Positions 13,837 through 52,616 of a stretch of DNA of 64,000 nucleotides are shown in pieces. The notes beneath the pieces were generated by a model that was given only the letters and a program-made list of their open reading frames with translations, did not search any database and was not told the origin of the DNA. Every line of letters begins with the position of its first letter. Position 1 is the stretch's first letter. Both the position numbers and the translations under genes were made by a program. The stretch is from Anaerocolumna cellulosilytica. GTDB taxonomy: Bacteria > Bacillota > Clostridia > Lachnospirales > Lachnospiraceae. The DNA lies in assembly GCF_014218335.1 (NCBI RefSeq), contig NZ_AP023367.1, positions 139,001 to 203,000 of the forward strand, in the 5' to 3' direction.

Positions 13837-14583
13837 ATGCTTACTATTGCTATTTGTGATAATAACACAAAAGATTCTAAAAAAATAGAAGCAATTGTAA
13901 AAGGTTATATGGATACGAAATGTATGTCTTATCGAATGTATTGTTATAATTCAGGGGAAGAATTGCTGGCATTTCGTATAAAATTTGATTTGGTATTTTT
14001 GGATATTGCAATGGATGGTATAAATGGGATTCAAGCTGGCAGGAAGCTGCGGGAAATGAATAGAAATGTAAAAATAGTTTATACCACCAGCTATCAACAG
14101 TATTGTATACAAGCAGTAAATAAGGTACATGCCTTTGCTTATTTAGAAAAACCGGTTACAAAGGAAAAAGCAGAATATCAGCTGAATGAAATTATACAAT
14201 ACATCAAAGAAGAAAAAGAAAAAATGAAAACAATAAACTTTGAAGTTGTAGAAATTACAGAAGAGGGCAAACTAGAAACTAGAATTAAGAACTTCGAAGT
14301 AAACGATATCTACTATTTTGAATATTTAAACCGTAAAATAAAAATTAGATTGGAACAAGAGGAATATTTCTTCGTGTATAGTATGAAAGAATTGGCCCAA
14401 AAGATGAAGTTATATGATTTTACCGTCTGTCATCAATGTTATTTGGTAAATCTAAGACATGTCAAAAAAATTAAAGGTTATGAGGTTTTTCTTGACGGTA
14501 GTAATGAAGTACTTCCTGTTTCCCAAAAAAAATCAGCTGAATTCCGAAAAAAATTAAACCAGTTCATACATAGCAGTCTATAG
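13837..14583 (+). CDS. LytTR-family response regulator (AgrA-like)
   Basis: 248 residues. Receiver domain at about 1-120 with the phospho-acceptor Asp in VFLDIAMDG (about residue 54) and the conserved Lys in YLEKPV; LytTR DNA-binding domain at about 140-245 (YYFEYLNRKIKI, then FTVCHQCYLVNLRHVKKI). Its kinase is coded 8 bases downstream. Together with the small autoinducer gene at 16427 this makes an AgrA-type peptide-responsive regulator the most likely role; LytTR regulators bind direct-repeat sites, which could lie before the autoinducer gene. A GGGGAGG site sits 7 bases before the ATG. Confidence 0.93.
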   Translation: MLTIAICDNNTKDSKKIEAIVKGYMDTKCMSYRMYCYNSGEELLAFRIKFDLVFLDIAMDGINGIQAGRKLREMNRNVKIVYTTSYQQYCIQAVNKVHAFAYLEKPVTKEKAEYQLNEIIQYIKEEKEKMKTINFEVVEITEEGKLETRIKNFEVNDIYYFEYLNRKIKIRLEQEEYFFVYSMKELAQKMKLYDFTVCHQCYLVNLRHVKKIKGYEVFLDGSNEVLPVSQKKSAEFRKKLNQFIHSSL

Positions 14584-14591
14584 GAGAAAAG

Positions 14592-15902
14592 ATGGAGAAT
14601 CATATTATATTTTTATTTGGTATTATCATATCATGTTTGGTTAATTGTATGATATTATTTCAATTTATAGAAGAAAGAAATGAAAGAATATATGAAAGCC
14701 GTTTCTTATATTTTCTGGCTAAAGTGGTACTATGTTTTCTAATCGGGTGCATTACAGCGATGAAGCATCCAATTATTAATATAGCAAGTTGGATACTATT
14801 GTTTGGTATTATAAATTTTTTGCTATATGAGAATCCTAACAAAAAAAATATATACCGGGTCTTGGAAGTTCCGGCATTGATTTTTATATTGACCATATGT
14901 GAAACGGTTGGCGTTATTATACTGGAATTTATTTTATGGAGATTTGATATACATAATATACAACCCAATATGATTGAAAGTATGGAAATTACTTTTTCTA
15001 AATTAGTTGTTTTGATATTTTATTATCTGGTAATTTCAAAGCTTTGGCGGGAAGATTCTGTGGGAAGATTTACAAAAACGGAAATTTGGGTTGAGGTTAT
15101 CATAATCTTATTCAGTATTGTCAATCTGGCTGTGATTATCTCCGTTATTCGTGAAATAAACAGCCAGACGGAACGTATCCTTTTATTAATTAATATGGGC
15201 TTTATCTTATTTGCAGATTTATACTTTCTGTATTTTGCCAGATTTGCAGCAATGTACAACCAACTTAAGGTTAAGCTGAGACTTTTGGAACAGCAGTCCC
15301 TGCTGCAGTACGAATATTATGCAGAGCAGGAAGAAAAATATAATGAATCTGTTAAAATTCTTCACGATGTCAATAAACATTTAAAGATGATTGAGAATAT
15401 GTATCAGGCGAAGGAAGGTAAAATCGCTATCACTTACACACAGGAAATCAGTAATATGCTGTTACCTCTGGCAATGGAAGAATATACAAATAATCCGCTG
15501 TTAAATGTTTTATTAAATGATAAAAAGAAAATTGCTAGTTATCGTAATATTGCATTTAATTTACAAATAGGCATGGTTGACCTTAGTTTTATGGAGCCAA
15601 TGGAAGTTACCACCATATTCGGAAATTTACTGGATAATGCAATAGAAGCATGTGATATGGTTATCATAAACAAATACATTGATATGAAACTGGATGGATA
15701 TCAAGATTTTATTGTTACTAATATTAGTAACAGTTCCATGCCAATTGAGAAATGGCATCATGGAAAACCAGTATCAAGGAAAGGAAAAGACCACGGAATA
15801 GGTCTGCTTAACGTAGAAAATATAGTCAGAAAGTACAATGGAAGTATGGTTTTAGAGGAAGAAAACCAAAAATTCAGTTGTAAAATAATCTTTAATAGAT
15901 AA
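14592..15902 (+). CDS. GHKL sensor histidine kinase (AgrC-like)
   Basis: 436 residues. The first about 215 residues form five to six membrane spans, the usual peptide-binding part of AgrC-type kinases, followed by a coiled linker (about 220-250). The phospho-accepting His lies in KILHDVNKHLKMI (about 258). The ATP-binding domain has N-box NLLDNAIEAC and G-box DHGIGLLNVENIV. It starts 8 bases after the response-regulator stop with an AGGAG site, so the two are one operon. An AgrD-type peptide gene follows about 520 bases downstream, making it the likely ligand source. Confidence 0.92.
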   Translation: MENHIIFLFGIIISCLVNCMILFQFIEERNERIYESRFLYFLAKVVLCFLIGCITAMKHPIINIASWILLFGIINFLLYENPNKKNIYRVLEVPALIFILTICETVGVIILEFILWRFDIHNIQPNMIESMEITFSKLVVLIFYYLVISKLWREDSVGRFTKTEIWVEVIIILFSIVNLAVIISVIREINSQTERILLLINMGFILFADLYFLYFARFAAMYNQLKVKLRLLEQQSLLQYEYYAEQEEKYNESVKILHDVNKHLKMIENMYQAKEGKIAITYTQEISNMLLPLAMEEYTNNPLLNVLLNDKKKIASYRNIAFNLQIGMVDLSFMEPMEVTTIFGNLLDNAIEACDMVIINKYIDMKLDGYQDFIVTNISNSSMPIEKWHHGKPVSRKGKDHGIGLLNVENIVRKYNGSMVLEEENQKFSCKIIFNR

Positions 15903-16426
15903 AAGGTTTTTAAAATATTATTTATAAGTTAATGCCAAGGTGTAGAATATATAAAGCTCTATGGTTTTTTCGTCATACACTGTCTGAAAGCTGTTAGCGG
16001 TACAGTTAACCGGTAATAGTCTTAAGGCAGTAATGCAGGAGAACCATGGGGCTATTTTTATTTTGCTTCATTAAATCAGACCCCCTTCCTAAGTAAATTG
16101 TGATCTGTAAGAAGAATGAAAAACTTATATTCTCTGTTAGTTATACATAAAAACTGTAAGTTATACGACTTATATTGAAATTAAGATAAAGAAGTGGCAA
16201 AATACGGCTGTAAAATATATGAAATAGCTGGGAAGTATAAATGAATACAGAAAGGGGAGAGGCATGAGAAAAGTGTTTGTGATGTCTATAAGCGCATTTA
16301 AGCGGCATCATATCGAAAGTTGAAAGAAAATATTTATAAGAAAGGATTGCCACAATTAGATTCTTTTGACTTATTTTTGGTGGCAGTATCAATTCTGTAT
16401 ACAGAGGTGATACATAATAGGTGTAA
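15903..16426 (+). other. non-coding or decayed stretch between agrC-like and agrD-like genes
   Basis: No intact gene of useful length is seen. In the place where agrB usually stands there are only short frames: a 19-codon frame at 16264 with a ribosome site (MRKVFVMSISAFKRHHIES) and an open stretch ending at 16432 without a start. I could not recognise AgrB membrane segments or its catalytic His/Cys in any frame. It probably carries the promoter of the peptide gene. Confidence 0.45.
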
Positions 16427-16576
16427 ATGATGAAAAAAGACTTAGAAAGGTTATCCCTGAAACTGATGTCCAAAGCAATCTTAAAGTCAACCGTAAAGGA
16501 AGCGAATACCTGTTGCTTTTTTATTGGCTACCAGCCGGAATTGCCTAAGGCAGTAAAAAAATTGAGGAAATTTTAG
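16427..16576 (+). CDS. agrD: AgrD-type cyclic autoinducer peptide precursor
   Basis: A 49-residue peptide (48 if the second ATG at 16430 is used) with the three parts of AgrD: an amphipathic N-terminal helix (residues 4-20, LERLSLKLMSKAILK), a core ANTCCFFIG (26-34), and a charged C-terminal tail beginning YQPELPK (35-41). The tail matches the HQPKVPK-like follower of clostridial AgrD proteins, which places the cleavage after Gly34 and suggests a five-residue thiolactone ring from Cys30 to Gly34 (or six from Cys29). Lies downstream of an AgrA/AgrC-like pair. AGGTG precedes the ATG. The AgrB protease needed to cyclise it is not in the window. Assignment rests on pattern only. Confidence 0.78.
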   Translation: MMKKDLERLSLKLMSKAILKSTVKEANTCCFFIGYQPELPKAVKKLRKF

Positions 16577-16719
16577 CTTCACGGAAAGGGTATTATGAGG
16601 TGTATTGGGGAAATGCATAGATACAACTATTAATCCATCAGCTATCAACGCATTTGTTATAGATTCAATAAGTTTTGTTGACAACTGACCCACTATTCAA
16701 AGGAAAGGAAGAATGTCAT

Positions 16720-17904
16720 ATGAAAAAAGTAGCTTTGGTTAACCCCTTAAGAACAGCAATAGGTTCCTTCAACGGAACGCTTTCATCTTTAAGTGCTCCT
16801 GAGCTGGGAGCAACGGTTATGAAAGCGTGTTTGAATCAAAGTAATTTAGAGGGTTCTTTCATTGAAGAGGTGTATATGGGTAATGTTCTGCAGGCAGGTA
16901 TTGGACAGAATCCTGCCAGACAGGCTGCATTAAAGGCAGGTATACCAATGGAAGTACCAGCATCAACCATTAATACGGTATGTGGTTCAGGTCTTCATGC
17001 GGTTGCGCTCGCTTACAACTCCGTTGTAGCGGAACAGAGCAGCCTCGTATTGGCAGGAGGCATGGAGTGTATGTCCAATGCACCTTACCTTTTAAGGAAT
17101 GCCAGAAACGGCTATCGGCTTGGCAATGGAGAAGTAATTGACAGCCTGGTTAGTGATGGACTCACCTGTCCTATTAATAATTACCATATGGGTATCACCG
17201 CAGAAAACGTTGCAGAAAAATATAATATATCAAGACCTGAGCAGGATGCATTTTCATATGAAAGCCATAGGAAAGCAGCAGAAGCAAAAAGTAAGAAACT
17301 ATTTGAAGGGCAGATTGTTCCCGTAACAATAAAAAAGAAAAAGGAAGAAATTGTTTTCTTTGAGGATGAACACGTAAAAGCAGATACCTCAATAGAAAAA
17401 CTCTCAGGTTTACGAACGGTATTTAAGACAGATGGAACGGTGACTGCCGGTAATGCATCACCCATAAGTGACGGTGCGGCAGGTATGTTTGTAGTATCAG
17501 AGGACAAATACAGGGAGCTTGGTTTAAAACCGTCAGCTTATATATTGGGCTATACCCTTGTTGCGGTTGACCCTGCATACATGGGTATTGGACCGGTCAA
17601 GGCGGTTTCTGCACTTCTCAAAAAACAAGGGTTATCGGTTGAGGATATCGACCTGTTTGAATTAAACGAAGCATTCGCAGCGCAAGCTCTGGCAGTATCC
17701 AAAGAACTTGGGGTTGATAAAGCGAAAATGAATGTCAACGGAGGAGCAATTGCAATCGGACATCCAGTGGGTGCAAGCGGTGCCAGGATATTGGTTACTC
17801 TGGTGCATGAAATGATACGAAGCTCCGCCCGCTATGGAGTGGCATCCCTTTGCATCGGAGGTGGTATGGGAATAGCCATGCTAGTTGAAAATGCAATGAT
17901 TTAA
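16720..17904 (+). CDS. thlA: acetyl-CoA C-acetyltransferase (thiolase)
   Basis: 394 residues. Condenses two acetyl-CoA to acetoacetyl-CoA. Seen: the acyl-accepting Cys88 in NTVCGSGLHAV, the His of GGAIAIGHPVGASGA and the second catalytic Cys in SLCIGGGMGIA, plus the FELNEAFAAQ motif. It opens a cluster with acetoacetate decarboxylase and CoA-transferase, so it feeds acetone formation rather than only butyrate. The start at 16720 has a GGAAG site 9 bases upstream; the upstream in-frame extension lacks one. A 143-base gap to the next gene leaves room for a second promoter. Confidence 0.95.
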   Translation: MKKVALVNPLRTAIGSFNGTLSSLSAPELGATVMKACLNQSNLEGSFIEEVYMGNVLQAGIGQNPARQAALKAGIPMEVPASTINTVCGSGLHAVALAYNSVVAEQSSLVLAGGMECMSNAPYLLRNARNGYRLGNGEVIDSLVSDGLTCPINNYHMGITAENVAEKYNISRPEQDAFSYESHRKAAEAKSKKLFEGQIVPVTIKKKKEEIVFFEDEHVKADTSIEKLSGLRTVFKTDGTVTAGNASPISDGAAGMFVVSEDKYRELGLKPSAYILGYTLVAVDPAYMGIGPVKAVSALLKKQGLSVEDIDLFELNEAFAAQALAVSKELGVDKAKMNVNGGAIAIGHPVGASGARILVTLVHEMIRSSARYGVASLCIGGGMGIAMLVENAMI

Positions 17905-18047: not shown

Positions 18048-18788
18048 ATGAATCAGGATGAAGTTCTATCCCTGCAATCTATGCCGGCAGCCAGTCCCAG
18101 TTATGGACGTCCGCCATGCCGTTTTATCAACAGGGAATATTTTACAATCAGCTATAAATCAGATCAGGAAGCCATTAGACAGGCTGTGCCGGAACCCCTA
18201 AAGCCCGACGGAAGTAATATTGTTTTATACGAGTGGATTAAGATGCCAGATTCTTCGGGGTTTGGAAGCTATGAGGAAAGCGGAATTGTAATTCCCTGTA
18301 CTTATGAAGGGGAACCCTGTAATTTTACAGCCCAGATGTATCTGAATAATGGTCCTGCCATTTTGGGAGGTCGTGAAATCTGGGGATTTCCTAAAAAATG
18401 GGGAAAACCAAGCCTCAGGGTGGAAGAGACGGAAACATTAACAGGTACCTTATACTACAATAACATATTGGTAGCTTTGGGGACAATGCCTTATAAGTAT
18501 AACATCCTGGATGAACAGGCTATTGCTAAAACCATATCCAAAACCCAGGTCAATCTAAAGTTAATTCCAGATGTGGAGGGACGGCCTAAAATTGCCCAGC
18601 TAGCAGCGTATAATCTGGAGAATGTAATGGTAAAAGGCTCCTGGTCAGGGCCTGCCAGATTAAGCCTGACATCCCATGTTAATGCACCTGTAGCAGATTT
18701 GCCGGTAAAAAACTGTGTGGAAGGGAAGCACTTTATTGTGGATTTAACATTACCTTATGCAAGGGTTTTGTATGATTATTTAAAGTAA
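18048..18788 (+). CDS. adc: acetoacetate decarboxylase
   Basis: 246 residues, close to the 244 of the solventogenic clostridial enzyme. Converts acetoacetate to acetone and CO2 through a Schiff base. The catalytic lysine pair is visible as Lys116-Lys117 in REIWGFPKKWGKP, the hallmark of the family (Lys115-Lys116 in Clostridium acetobutylicum). It precedes the CoA-transferase genes by 18 bases, a different gene order from the ctfA-ctfB-adc order known from C. beijerinckii. Confidence 0.95.
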   Translation: MNQDEVLSLQSMPAASPSYGRPPCRFINREYFTISYKSDQEAIRQAVPEPLKPDGSNIVLYEWIKMPDSSGFGSYEESGIVIPCTYEGEPCNFTAQMYLNNGPAILGGREIWGFPKKWGKPSLRVEETETLTGTLYYNNILVALGTMPYKYNILDEQAIAKTISKTQVNLKLIPDVEGRPKIAQLAAYNLENVMVKGSWSGPARLSLTSHVNAPVADLPVKNCVEGKHFIVDLTLPYARVLYDYLK

Positions 18789-18806: not shown

Positions 18807-19463
18807 ATGATAAATAAATTAATGACAGCCAGAGAAGCAGTTAGAAAGGTAAAGGACGGAGATACACTTATGGTTGGAGGGTTTCTTGCAGGAGGCCATC
18901 CCCAAAATCTGGTATCCGCGCTTGTTGATACCAGTTCTGCAGGTAATTTAAGCATTGTCTCCAACGACACAGGGACACAAGAATTATCTATTTATGAGCT
19001 AATAAAAAGCGGCAGAGTAAAACAGATATATGCCTCCTATATTGGTTCAAATCCCGAGACAGGACGGCTTCTTATGACGGGTGAAGCATCGGTTCAGCTC
19101 TTTCCGCAGGGAACCCTTGCAGAGAAAATTCGAGCAGGCGGAGCTGGTCTTGGAGGTGTATTAACGCCAGTTGGTATCGGAACCGTTGTAGAAGAGGGAA
19201 AGAGAAAAATAGATATCGATGGAAGAGAGTATTTGCTAGAAATGCCCTTAAAAGCAAATGTAGCATTTATTAAGGCTCATAAGGCCGATGAAACAGGTAA
19301 TCTGGTTATAAACGGTTCTGCACGTAACTTTAACATTGTAATGGCAACAGCCGCGGATTACGTAATTGCAGAAGTGGAAAATTACGTTAAGGCAGGAGAA
19401 ATCGACCCAAATTATGTTAATGTTCCCGGTATATTTGTAGATGCTATTGTAAAGGTGGGATAA
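18807..19463 (+). CDS. ctfA: acetoacetyl-CoA:acyl CoA-transferase, subunit A
   Basis: 218 residues of the family I CoA-transferase alpha subunit (atoD/ctfA/scoA): DGDTLMVGGFLAGGHP near the start is the glycine-rich CoA-binding loop, and GGVLTPVGIGTVVEEGK is typical. With subunit B it moves CoA from acetoacetyl-CoA to acetate or butyrate, releasing acetoacetate for the decarboxylase. AAAGGAGG lies before the ATG. The B subunit gene starts 4 bases after the stop. Confidence 0.93.
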   Translation: MINKLMTAREAVRKVKDGDTLMVGGFLAGGHPQNLVSALVDTSSAGNLSIVSNDTGTQELSIYELIKSGRVKQIYASYIGSNPETGRLLMTGEASVQLFPQGTLAEKIRAGGAGLGGVLTPVGIGTVVEEGKRKIDIDGREYLLEMPLKANVAFIKAHKADETGNLVINGSARNFNIVMATAADYVIAEVENYVKAGEIDPNYVNVPGIFVDAIVKVG

Positions 19464-19467
19464 ATGT

Positions 19468-20124
19468 ATGAATAATAGAGAATTTATTGCAAAAAGGATT
19501 GCAAAGGAACTGAAAGACGGTGATGTTGTAAACCTAGGAATCGGAATGCCTACCATGGTTGCAAATTACATACCAGAAGATGTACAAATTATGCTTCAGG
19601 CTGAAAACGGTATTCTTGGTGTGGGACCCAAACCGGCTTTAGGAGAAGAAAGACTTGATTGCATTGATGCAGGCGGAAACTACGTTACAACCGTAAAAGG
19701 TGCTAGTTTTTTTGACAGCTCCTTCTCCTTTTGTATCATCCGTGGAGGGCATGTGGATATTACTGTATTAGGTGCCTTGGAGGTCGATGAGGAGGGTAAT
19801 GTGGCAAACTGGATGATTCCAGGTAAAAAGGTTCCGGGTATGGGAGGTGCTATGGACTTAGTTGTGGGAGCAAAAAAAGTCATATTAGCAATGGAACATG
19901 TGAACAAAGACGGTTCTCCGAAGATATTAAAAAAATGTAAATTGCCCCTGACAGCCATACATGTGGCTAAGACCATCGTTACAGATATGGCAGTTTTCGA
20001 TGTGATTTTGGGAGAGGGTCTGGTATTAAAGGAGATTGCCCCAGGTCTGTCCGTAGAAGAAGTACAAAGGGTAACAGAGGCAGAATTTGTTGTTTCACCG
20101 GAATTGAAAATCATTGTAGTATAG
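19468..20124 (+). CDS. ctfB: acetoacetyl-CoA:acyl CoA-transferase, subunit B
   Basis: 218 residues of the family I beta subunit (atoA/ctfB/scoB). The catalytic glutamate that forms the CoA thioester is Glu46 in AENGILGVGP; GMGGAMDLVVGAKK is the second family motif. It forms the heteromeric enzyme with the product of the gene before it. It is the last gene of the cluster: a bidirectional terminator lies at 20315-20343 before the convergent dehydrogenase. Confidence 0.94.
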   Translation: MNNREFIAKRIAKELKDGDVVNLGIGMPTMVANYIPEDVQIMLQAENGILGVGPKPALGEERLDCIDAGGNYVTTVKGASFFDSSFSFCIIRGGHVDITVLGALEVDEEGNVANWMIPGKKVPGMGGAMDLVVGAKKVILAMEHVNKDGSPKILKKCKLPLTAIHVAKTIVTDMAVFDVILGEGLVLKEIAPGLSVEEVQRVTEAEFVVSPELKIIVV

Positions 20125-20314
20125 TATTTGTTATAGTTAAAATGTATTACGGCTTTGCAGGTTTATAATGTCTAGATTTCTAGTAATTTTGCTGGCTTCA
20201 TTACATAAGATAACGGCTGTTAATTACTGCTAGATGAATTAATACCGTAGATGAAGTTTTTTATGCTTGCACAAAGAAAGAAGATGTAATATCAGAAAGA
20301 TAAAGATAGATATA

Positions 20315-20343
20315 GGGTATCTCATAATCCATTTGAGATACCC
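20315..20343. terminator. bidirectional terminator between ctfB and the dehydrogenase gene
   Basis: GGGTATCTCA (20315-20324) pairs perfectly with TGAGATACCC (20334-20343), 9-base loop, between two convergent genes. The flanking T-tracts are weak on both sides. Confidence 0.65.
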
Positions 20344-20360
20344 TAATCTTGTAAGTACGA

Positions 20361-21422
20361 TTACCAGTTTATCACTACAACCGGCTTTATCAAATCTGCT
20401 GGCTTATTCTTCATTAATAGAAGTGCTTCTTCAATCTTATCAAAGCCTTCAAAGCGGTGGGTCACTAATTTGCCTGCATCAAGCCGACCGGTTGTGATAA
20501 GAGATGCAAGCTTTTCCATTCGCAATCTGCCGCCTGGCATAAGCCCACCAGCTATAACCTTGTGTCCCATACCGCAGCCCCATTCGTTTCGTGGTATCTT
20601 TATGTAATCTCCGTCACCCAGATAATTTACATTGCCGATTTTTCCACCTGGTTTTAAAATGGAAATTGCTTGTGCAAAAGTATCAACATCTCCTCCGGCA
20701 ATGATAACCCGATCAACACCGGTGCCTCCCGTTTTCTTCATAATTTGTTCTACAATATCACCTTCACGATAATTAATTAAATCCGTAGCGCCATATTCTT
20801 TGGCGAGCTGTATGCAGTTCGGGCGGGAGCCTACCGCATATATATGAGATGCTCCTCGGAGGGCAGAAGCAGCAACGGACATAAGTCCAACTGGACCAAT
20901 ACCAATGACCGCTACACTATCGCCGAATTGAATATCTGCAAGCTCTGCACCATGGAAGCCTGTCGGTACCATGTCAGAAAGCATACAGGCAGCAACCGGA
21001 TCCATGCCTTCCGGTAATAAAGCAAGATTACCATCTGCATCATTTACATGGAATAACTCACCGAATACTCCATCTTTAAAATTTGAGAACTTCCATCCTC
21101 CAAGCATCCCTCCGGAATGCATCTGATAACCATTCTGAGCTTCAACGGAATTCCAGTCAGGTGTAATTGCAGGGATAATAACCTTATCACCAGGCTTAAA
21201 AGACTTTACAAGGGCTCCCACCTCAACCACCTCGGCAACAGCTTCGTGGCCTAATATCATATCATGACGTTCACCGATAGCACCTTCCCAAACGGTATGA
21301 ATATCAGAGGTACAGGGGGCAAGAACGATAGGGCGGCAGATTGCGTTAAGGGGACCACAAACCGGTGTTTCCTTTTCAATCCAACCTGTTTTACCAATAG
21401 CTAACATGGCATAACCTTTCAT
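20361..21422 (-). CDS. adh: NADP-dependent secondary alcohol (isopropanol) dehydrogenase
   Basis: 353 residues, about the length of the Thermoanaerobacter brockii and Clostridium beijerinckii enzymes, to which the sequence is closely similar as I recall them. Zinc ligands Cys37, His59 and Asp150 are in register, with Glu60 beside them. The Rossmann fold reads GIGPVG (about 175-180), and Ser199, Arg200 and Tyr218, the residues that select NADPH in that family, are all present. It would reduce acetone to 2-propanol. It is convergent to thl-adc-ctfAB, so it has its own promoter upstream of 21422. That upstream DNA contains a 10-bp inverted repeat (21516-21525 with 21538-21547). Confidence 0.94.
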   Translation of the reverse strand: MKGYAMLAIGKTGWIEKETPVCGPLNAICRPIVLAPCTSDIHTVWEGAIGERHDMILGHEAVAEVVEVGALVKSFKPGDKVIIPAITPDWNSVEAQNGYQMHSGGMLGGWKFSNFKDGVFGELFHVNDADGNLALLPEGMDPVAACMLSDMVPTGFHGAELADIQFGDSVAVIGIGPVGLMSVAASALRGASHIYAVGSRPNCIQLAKEYGATDLINYREGDIVEQIMKKTGGTGVDRVIIAGGDVDTFAQAISILKPGGKIGNVNYLGDGDYIKIPRNEWGCGMGHKVIAGGLMPGGRLRMEKLASLITTGRLDAGKLVTHRFEGFDKIEEALLLMKNKPADLIKPVVVINW

Positions 21423-51634: not shown

Positions 51635-52375
51635 TTATTTATCATTTGAGAATTTTTGCTCCTTCATAGTAGGATAAACTTCCGGATAATATACATACTG
51701 GTAGATGCCGGAGGTTAGTTTGCTCCAGTTACCCTCCTGCTCCCTGCCGATTTCTTTTAAATAGCCTTTCATCTCTGTATCATATTGCTCGATAGCTTTT
51801 TCTAAGCCTTCTGTATGGTAGGATTCCTCGTGTTTAAAGGTTTCAAAAGGAAGTCTTGGTTTCTTATGAGAATTATCTTTTGGATATCCTACGGCAAGAC
51901 CCACAGCCGGATACACATATTCAGGAAGATTTAACAGCTTAATTAATTCTCCGGGGTTTTTTCGCACACCACCGATGGGAACGATACCAAGACCCAGGGA
52001 TTCGGCAGAGATGATGGCAGCTGCCATTGCTAAGCCAGAATCAAAGGTTCCAACCATAGTGCCTTCCACACTCTCATGGATTACTTGTGTTAATCCGTTT
52101 TTCTTGGCCGCCAGATGCGTTTTATAAAAATCCAGAACATAGATTAGAAATACCGGGGCATCTTCAACCCATTGCTGACCACCTGCCAGATGGGCAATTT
52201 TAGCTTTGGTTTCTTTATCTCTTATTACAATGACTGAGGTTTGCTGTCCGTTAATAGAACTTGGCATAGCTTGAGATGACTTTAATATTTCATCAATGAT
52301 TTCATTATCAATATCTTTATCAAGAAAACTACGTATAGACCTATGATTTTGAATTAATTGTATCGTTTCGTTCAT
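51635..52375 (-). CDS. NfsA-like flavin nitroreductase
   Basis: 246 residues. The nitroreductase fold is shown by the FMN-binding start NHRSIRSFLDK, SSQAMPSSINGQQTSVIVI, and the GLGIVPIGGVRKNP segment typical of the NfsA/FRP group of NAD(P)H:flavin or nitro-compound reductases. It reduces nitro compounds or free flavin using FMN. It looks like an ordinary chromosomal gene that borders the phage-derived module. The ribosome site is weak. Confidence 0.9.
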   Translation of the reverse strand: MNETIQLIQNHRSIRSFLDKDIDNEIIDEILKSSQAMPSSINGQQTSVIVIRDKETKAKIAHLAGGQQWVEDAPVFLIYVLDFYKTHLAAKKNGLTQVIHESVEGTMVGTFDSGLAMAAAIISAESLGLGIVPIGGVRKNPGELIKLLNLPEYVYPAVGLAVGYPKDNSHKKPRLPFETFKHEESYHTEGLEKAIEQYDTEMKGYLKEIGREQEGNWSKLTSGIYQYVYYPEVYPTMKEQKFSNDK

Positions 52376-52616
52376 ACTTCATACCTATTACATACCGCTG
52401 GCACTGTCTGCGGTACAGCCACAAATAAAAGCGGTTGAAAGTATCTCTAAGTGGCATTCCCTTCTTTTTTATTTTCTTTCAACCTATCGACAGGATTCTA
52501 AAGATTGCATTTAATTAAATTGAGTACAATTTATAATAATTGTATTAGATTCCCCTTAATTTGTCAATAGTATTATGCCCATTTTTAAAGATAGTTTATG
52601 TTTTTCGTATGATTTC

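Follow-up and report, generated by a model that had tools for sequence, protein, structure and literature searches.

The 64,000-nucleotide stretch of the Anaerocolumna cellulosilytica genome examined here (the window; C1:139001-203000 of a 5.43-Mb genome assembled as the single contig C1) carries an Agr-type peptide signaling cassette in which a response regulator, a sensor kinase and an AgrD peptide gene lead directly into an acetone operon, and from which agrB, the gene that ends the same cassette in relatives, is missing. From sequence comparison it is close to certain that an Agr cassette encloses the acetone operon and that the window lineage has lost agrB, and it is very likely that the cassette controls the operon. 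Given both, maturation of AgrD in trans, by an AgrB encoded elsewhere in the genome, is a slightly better than even bet. The chain without this last step is probable, and the whole chain has a probability of roughly 0.45, which is the product of the odds of its steps. The initial annotation had placed the regulator, the kinase and the 49-codon agrD frame at the coordinates given below, and these were confirmed, as were its Agr-type kinase and LytTR regulator assignments. Its picture of an AgrA/AgrC-like pair lacking agrB stands as to the pair and the absence; the pair is not free-standing, since the cassette encloses the acetone operon. The operon downstream, the place of agrB after ctfB, the LytTR-type repeat and the repeated RNA leader had been missed. 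The features of the locus, in window positions, are as follows.

13837..14583, forward strand: AgrA-like response regulator with receiver and LytTR domains (PF00072, Response_reg, and PF04397, both over cut-off).
14592..15902, forward strand: AgrC-like GHKL sensor kinase (PF14501, HATPase_c_5, over cut-off).
16134..16166, forward strand: tandem direct repeat CTGTTAGTTATAC / CTGTAAGTTATAC with a 20-bp period, putative LytTR regulator site, kept in relatives.
16175..16203, forward strand: promoter-like site from a promoter scan, TTGAAA-17-CAAAAT, with TG before the second hexamer.
16316..16427, forward strand: structured RNA leader of agrD (covariance model R1, 94.7 bits, match 16316-16454; covariation), with a helix at 16317-16328/16361-16372, a crossing helix at about 16348-16353/16380-16385 and a hairpin at 16387-16412.
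16427..16576, forward strand: agrD (TIGR04223 match and alignment with relatives), predicted ring CFFIG (Cys30-Gly34) followed by the tail YQPELPK.
16720..17904, forward strand: thl, acetyl-coenzyme A (CoA) acetyltransferase (Pfam Thiolase_N and Thiolase_C).
18048..18788, forward strand: adc, acetoacetate decarboxylase (NCBIfam NF002614, Pfam ADC).
18807..19463, forward strand: ctfA, CoA transferase subunit (Pfam CoA_trans).
19468..20124, forward strand: ctfB, CoA transferase subunit (Pfam CoA_trans).
20125..20360, forward strand: place of agrB in relatives, here without an agrB remnant.
20361..21422, reverse strand: secondary alcohol (isopropanol) dehydrogenase, a convergent neighbor (PDB sequence matches).

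The agrD assignment rests on a match to NCBIfam TIGR04223 at 1.7e-13 (50.3 bits; curated cut-off, 19), which bears out the precursor proposed earlier. In a six-frame scan of the genome, the window peptide headed four AgrD matches over the cut-off (3.2e-12), the fourth of which exceeded it barely. Both marks of an AgrD-family precursor, a ring Cys or Ser and a PxxP tail, are present (CFFIG-YQPELPK). The frame is conserved in close relatives, a check that the initial annotation had called for, and a chance frame at 16427-16576 was rejected on the strength of the profile match and this conservation. That annotation had left the ring size open between Cys29 and Cys30. The window core is N-T-C-C-F-F-I-G-Y-Q-P; of the 13 AgrDs of related acetone loci, 12 share the core N-S-S-C-F-F-I-G-Y-Q-P and the remaining one (Lachnotalea) has N-S-A-C-F-F-L-G-Y-Q-P. 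All 13 thus have Cys at position 30, with Ser at position 29 in 12 of them and Ala in the other, which identifies Cys30 as the ring residue; Cys29 was rejected because conservation is seen only at Cys30. The predicted ring therefore runs CFFIG from Cys30, with Tyr35 directly after it.

A search with four aligned kinases retrieved 17 related loci, and their gene order was mapped by BLAST and an AgrD profile. The loci come from records named Clostridium sp. Marseille-P2415, sp. 12(A) and sp. E02; [Clostridium] aerotolerans; Lachnotalea glycerini; Anaerosacchariphilus polymeriproducens; five Lacrimispora loci (two amygdalina, two xylanisolvens and one defluvii); and six metagenome-assembled genomes (two Clostridiales, two labelled Paenibacillaceae, one Hungatella and one Anaerocolumna). 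Kinase orthologues are 52-78% identical across the 17 loci, and the kinase retains, in the alignment by eye, what we take to be the H, N and G motifs. Regulator orthologues adjoin the kinase in 16 of the 17, L067 beginning at the kinase. Kinase and acetone genes occur together in 15 loci, of which 14 have the regulator (cut by the contig end in L074). In two of the 15 (L069 and L072) the contig ends before the possible agrB position; agrB follows ctfB in all 13 acetone loci whose contig reaches there. The agrD gene lies between ctfB and agrB in nine of these 13 and before thl or adc in four (L064, L065, L075 and L078). L078 is without thl, and thl and adc are split over two frames in L076. A member of the window's own genus (G007, whose contig carries L065) has the window gene order, with agrB 32 bases past ctfB.

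In the kinase tree, the window falls inside a clade (100/100) that also holds the 13 agrB carriers and two truncated loci; this tree leaves the window's exact neighbors unsettled and has long outgroup branches. A second tree held the window and 10 of the 13 acetone loci (L073, L074 and L076 left out). This position among agrB carriers means that the window lineage once had agrB and lost it, and by these comparisons the loss from the end of the acetone operon is specific to that lineage, with agrD, kinase and regulator intact. No AgrB (PF04647) was found within the 64-kb window, the kinase-agrD space included, in agreement with what had been noted for that space.

Several other explanations of the absence were considered. 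In the 236-base interval that separates ctfB from the dehydrogenase gene, tblastn with the G007 protein found no AgrB, and local alignment with the equivalent stretch of four relatives gave no similarity above shuffles; a hidden or degraded agrB after ctfB was rejected because neither search showed anything above chance. An assembly gap was rejected because the genome is one contig. The absence of any AgrB from the genome had been named at the outset as an objection to the peptide gene; three AgrB genes, all over the PF04647 cut-off, were found (C1:39253, C1:2341363 and C1:3660535), each with its own AgrD nearby. An AgrB tree of 49 rows (33 of 35 genus loci, L051 and L056 giving none, plus the 13 acetone-locus and three own sequences) flagged ten long branches, none of them in the acetone-locus clade. 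The 13 acetone-locus AgrBs formed one clade (100/100) with none of the three inside, and relocation of agrB within the genome was rejected because all three lie outside it.

The control region between kinase and agrD contains the repeat. This tandem repeat, in the form CTGTAAGTTATAC, follows the kinase in the window and in each of the 17 loci (strict motif in 15; L073 and L079 by a looser match); its period is 20 bp, or 21 bp in L066 and L068. The window genome has one match at two or fewer mismatches, and the reversed control has none. Because the repeat accompanies the cassette in the window and all 17 loci and occurs once in the genome, the system very likely controls acetone/isopropanol formation. 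TTGAAA follows the repeat in 16 of the 17 loci, the exception being L075. In the window, the 9-bp repeats stand 11 bp apart and end 8 bp before TTGAAA. LytTR regulators of another kind of operon use repeats 11 to 13 bp apart and about 10 bp upstream of the -35 element (PMC6193735; cited papers are represented here by excerpts), a rule with which the window spacing and position agree. No terminator-like site was found in 15880-16750. An acetone-type repeat box was not found before the genome's other agr sets, and a promoter box common to them and the window was rejected, the acetone-type box occurring only at the window locus; the set at C1:3660008 has a different 20-bp repeat before its agrD (L005:6210-, 29/48 matches). 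The idea that the window AgrD has converged on the AgrDs of the genome's other agr sets was likewise rejected, no such convergence being visible by eye.

In the mechanism that we propose, the CFFIG peptide, a thiolactone closed from Cys30, would bind the kinase; the kinase would phosphorylate the LytTR regulator; and the regulator would bind the repeat at 16134-16166 and switch on agrD-thl-adc-ctfAB. High cell density would then lead to acetone and, via the neighboring dehydrogenase, to isopropanol. One of the genome's three AgrBs would most likely mature AgrD in trans, the first candidate being that at C1:3660535-3661065. The acetone-locus AgrB clade joins, at 98/95, the clade containing this AgrB; the nearest genome paralogue of the window kinase is the kinase of the same set (31%); and the tail of that set's AgrD resembles the window's (GYQQKLPQSVKNLKKF beside GYQPELPKAVKKLRKF). 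In two further genomes of the genus (G000 and G001), no agrB was seen beside the pair and an AgrB of the C1:3660535 type was present, and G007, with its own agrB, showed none, a pattern that is weak because G007 is 78% and G001 63% complete. A parallel is Agr system 2 of Clostridium autoethanogenum, where agrD2-agrC2 lack agrB and processing by AgrB1 of the other system has been proposed (PMC8748961). As in the window, agrD lies by its kinase; the C. autoethanogenum operon differs in having no regulator gene, and acetone genes are not mentioned in the excerpt. The agrB loss can be placed in the window, where relatives keep agrB in the same operon, a further difference from C. autoethanogenum.

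Between the promoter and agrD, the window contains a structured RNA leader. The blocks shared with G007 at the promoter region and the agrD start are separated by 204 bases in the window and by 20 in G007, and part of this insert is repeated genome-wide (40 matches, the window's own included). The copies inspected end near a start codon and have in common helix A (GTTGAAAGAA/TTCTTTCAAC), helix B (TGCCAC/GTGGCA) and a third hairpin. Helix B crosses helix A, so that a pseudoknot results if B forms, as it probably does. Of the 40 leader loci (39 copies and the window), 25 fit the motif and 15 did not; two outliers (L145 and L146) were left out, and the remaining 23 were aligned. In this alignment 91.1% of cells pair, versus 82.5% in shuffles, and the covariation score is 0.294, versus 0.138 in shuffles (0 of 500 reaching 0.294) and 0.067 to 0.095 when slid. 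Two-sided changes occur at 12 pairs, every one of which belongs to helix A or the hairpin. Helix B is nearly invariant and has no such change, so covariation does not prove it. Model R1, built without helix B, found 141 copies in the genome at E ≤0.01 (150 candidates scored). In a search of 61 genomes, with per-genome counts taken from the best 54 candidates at most, matches occurred in 15/15 genomes of the genus versus 1/46 others, and two genus members had at least three and at least four copies. An ATG opening at least 45 codons lies near the 3' end of all 30 best copies (window agrD included), versus 201 of 1,035 random stretches, and the proteins downstream are diverse by eye.

No Rfam family matched the leader at its gathering score, the best subthreshold match in the window being a miRNA family (27.8 bits; gathering, 70), and a known riboswitch was rejected as its identity, none being among the Rfam matches. 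In the 17 related loci, no match of model R1 was better than E 0.017 and none lay at agrD; of the loci seen, only the window therefore has the leader before agrD. A limited literature search on the leader turned up nothing relevant. Control of translation is the obvious guess as to its function, and it may be an unnamed regulatory RNA class on more than 100 genes of one genome. Taken with the loss of agrB, the leader invites a wider interpretation, one we hold only tentatively and consider somewhat unlikely: that a cassette which lost its maturase has its peptide finished by a paralogous Agr system and the translation of its agrD placed under an undescribed, genus-specific, pseudoknotted leader that precedes about 140 other genes. 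If true, two signaling circuits would be linked. A second strong copy of the leader lies in the window on the reverse strand (52351-52486, 89.7 bits); further copies are L159-L188, for example, and one genome (G010) has tandem copies about 106 nucleotides apart (2364702-2365153).

Several observations weigh against the mechanism with trans processing. The window AgrD carries S28T and S29C just before the ring, where Ser is found in 13/13 and 12/13 relatives, respectively, which could mean early decay; two more differences (K to E and D to A) are both at variable places. The C1:3660535-3661065 AgrB is only 30 to 42% identical to acetone-locus AgrBs, and the AgrD of its own set has a different ring, CVFFG. 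The TTGAAA-17-CAAAAT site is weak alone because promoter-like sites in 15880-16750 (six) are not more numerous than by chance (shuffle mean 3.8; standard deviation, 2.1). The trans processing proposed for C. autoethanogenum is likewise inferred; there, single agrD deletions gave no clear phenotype and the double mutant was not restored by returning agrD2 (PMC8748961).

Selection was gauged from pairwise ratios of nonsynonymous to synonymous substitution rates (dN/dS) covering four of the 17 loci and the window. Against L064 and L065, both of which have agrB, the window values were 0.115 and 0.058 for agrD (L064-L065, 0.189), 0.088 and 0.150 for the kinase (0.133) and 0.193 and 0.191 for the regulator (0.190); agrD is short. 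No stop or frameshift is present in the three genes. Relaxed selection is thus not visible on agrD, kinase or regulator, a result that gives weak evidence because the synonymous rate is near saturation and the agrB loss is undated.

The candidate AgrB's clade, the kinase paralogy, the similar tail and the C. autoethanogenum parallel make trans processing our first choice. The second is that the window species produces no mature signal of its own and that its kinase and regulator answer the CFFIG of neighbors such as Lacrimispora and Anaerosacchariphilus relatives. In its favor, the species has lost the cognate agrB, its kinase and regulator are intact and under no visibly relaxed selection, and the ring is predicted to be CFFIG in 12 of the 13 acetone-locus relatives (CFFLG in Lachnotalea). 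Against it, such a species would have no use for agrD, whose frame, ring and tail are nevertheless maintained at a dN/dS of 0.06 to 0.12, and three AgrBs are encoded elsewhere; we consider such listening unlikely. Recent decay, with agrB newly lost, agrD a useless leftover and the regulator pair next to go, would suit both the substitutions at nearly constant places before the ring and the RNA leader now inserted between promoter and agrD. It is made quite unlikely by the absence of stops and frameshifts, by dN/dS values about as low as those between L064 and L065 and by the lack of an agrB remnant at the site, which indicates that the loss was not a fresh small lesion. Processing by another membrane protease or an unrelated cyclase is highly improbable: nothing was found in its favor except that no cognate AgrB remains, and the PxxP tail (YQPELP), a motif suggested to function in AgrB recognition (PMC8748961), is retained.

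In staphylococci, the agr genes are ordered agrBDCA and are served by a direct-repeat promoter. Like the Staphylococcus and Clostridium systems, the window has an AgrD-family peptide, an adjacent GHKL kinase and LytTR regulator and a direct-repeat promoter; unlike them, its cassette places regulator and kinase first and the acetone operon inside, and agrB, which ends the cassette in relatives, is absent from the window species. The locus thus lacks the agrB that Agr systems carry, and the genome supplies three AgrB copies, none of the acetone-locus clade. In Clostridium thermocellum, a second precedent, the agrD gene Clo1313_2818 lies outside any agr operon and its mature cyclic pentapeptide has been detected, with a five-residue ring and cleavage before a Tyr (PMC5322536). 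Ring size and cleavage before Tyr, both as predicted for the window, and an agrD outside an agr operon are shared traits; the C. thermocellum product differs in being a Ser lactone, and the excerpt reports no cognate kinase, regulator or AgrB as identified. The Clostridium sol operons (types I and II; PMC5343299) share adc, ctfA and ctfB, whereas the window order is thl-adc-ctfA-ctfB with no adhE or ald, and flanking agr genes are not described for them in the excerpted text. Nor are agr genes reported to flank acetone genes in the excerpts of three solvent papers (PMC5343299, PMC11063209 and PMC10538166), and the literature search found no report of it, which is not proof of absence. Each element is known by itself, be it Agr system, orphan agrD or acetone operon; the literature searched gave no example of their interlocking.

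The arrangement offers a single-promoter hypothesis for solvent switching in Lachnospiraceae, with a peptide circuit inside the acetone operon. The same predicted ring occurs under four genus names besides that of the window (Clostridium, Lacrimispora, Hungatella and Anaerosacchariphilus), from which talk between species is predicted. The window species is in effect a natural agrB deletion, in which trans processing, eavesdropping and decay can be distinguished.

The evidence, from gene order, is thin, but agr cassettes that enclose exchangeable cargo may be more widespread; among the cargoes seen, the acetone operon is the best sampled. Two of the 17 loci are without acetone genes. L077 (G001:C106) has the regulator-kinase pair, three other genes and agrD, with no agrB to the contig end, and carries two copies of the repeat, one ahead of the cargo and one ahead of agrD; by eye, its three cargo proteins are probably secreted. 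L079 is a short contig with no agrD. Eight more distant kinase loci (33 to 45%) were inspected: L104 consists of regulator, kinase, agrD, two genes and agrB; L103 has regulator, kinase, an inserted frame, agrD, agrB and further genes; and six have neither agrB nor agrD within the stretch inspected.

Directly downstream of agrD, the clostridial acetone pathway set (thl, adc, ctfA and ctfB) is complete. The convergent dehydrogenase matched 18 PDB sequences (E 1e-174 to 1e-153) named NADP-dependent alcohol, secondary-alcohol or isopropanol dehydrogenase. A hairpin at 20315-20343, after ctfB, was recognized by eye and by folding; the terminator scan lists none there. The sister set around the C1:3660535 AgrB (L005, C1:3654000-3668000) is a complete agr set of regulator, kinase, agrB and agrD, followed on the same strand by genes that appear by eye to encode an HD-domain protein and pta-like and ackA-like products. 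At C1:39826-39936 (L004), an AgrD-like frame with a profile score at the cut-off lies by an AgrB; its core, TASQYGIYQATEP, has no Cys, and by analogy with C. thermocellum a Ser lactone is possible. In two other genus members, an AgrD match (G006:C1:189053-189175) and an AgrB match (G002:C37:90389-90889) contain in-frame stops.

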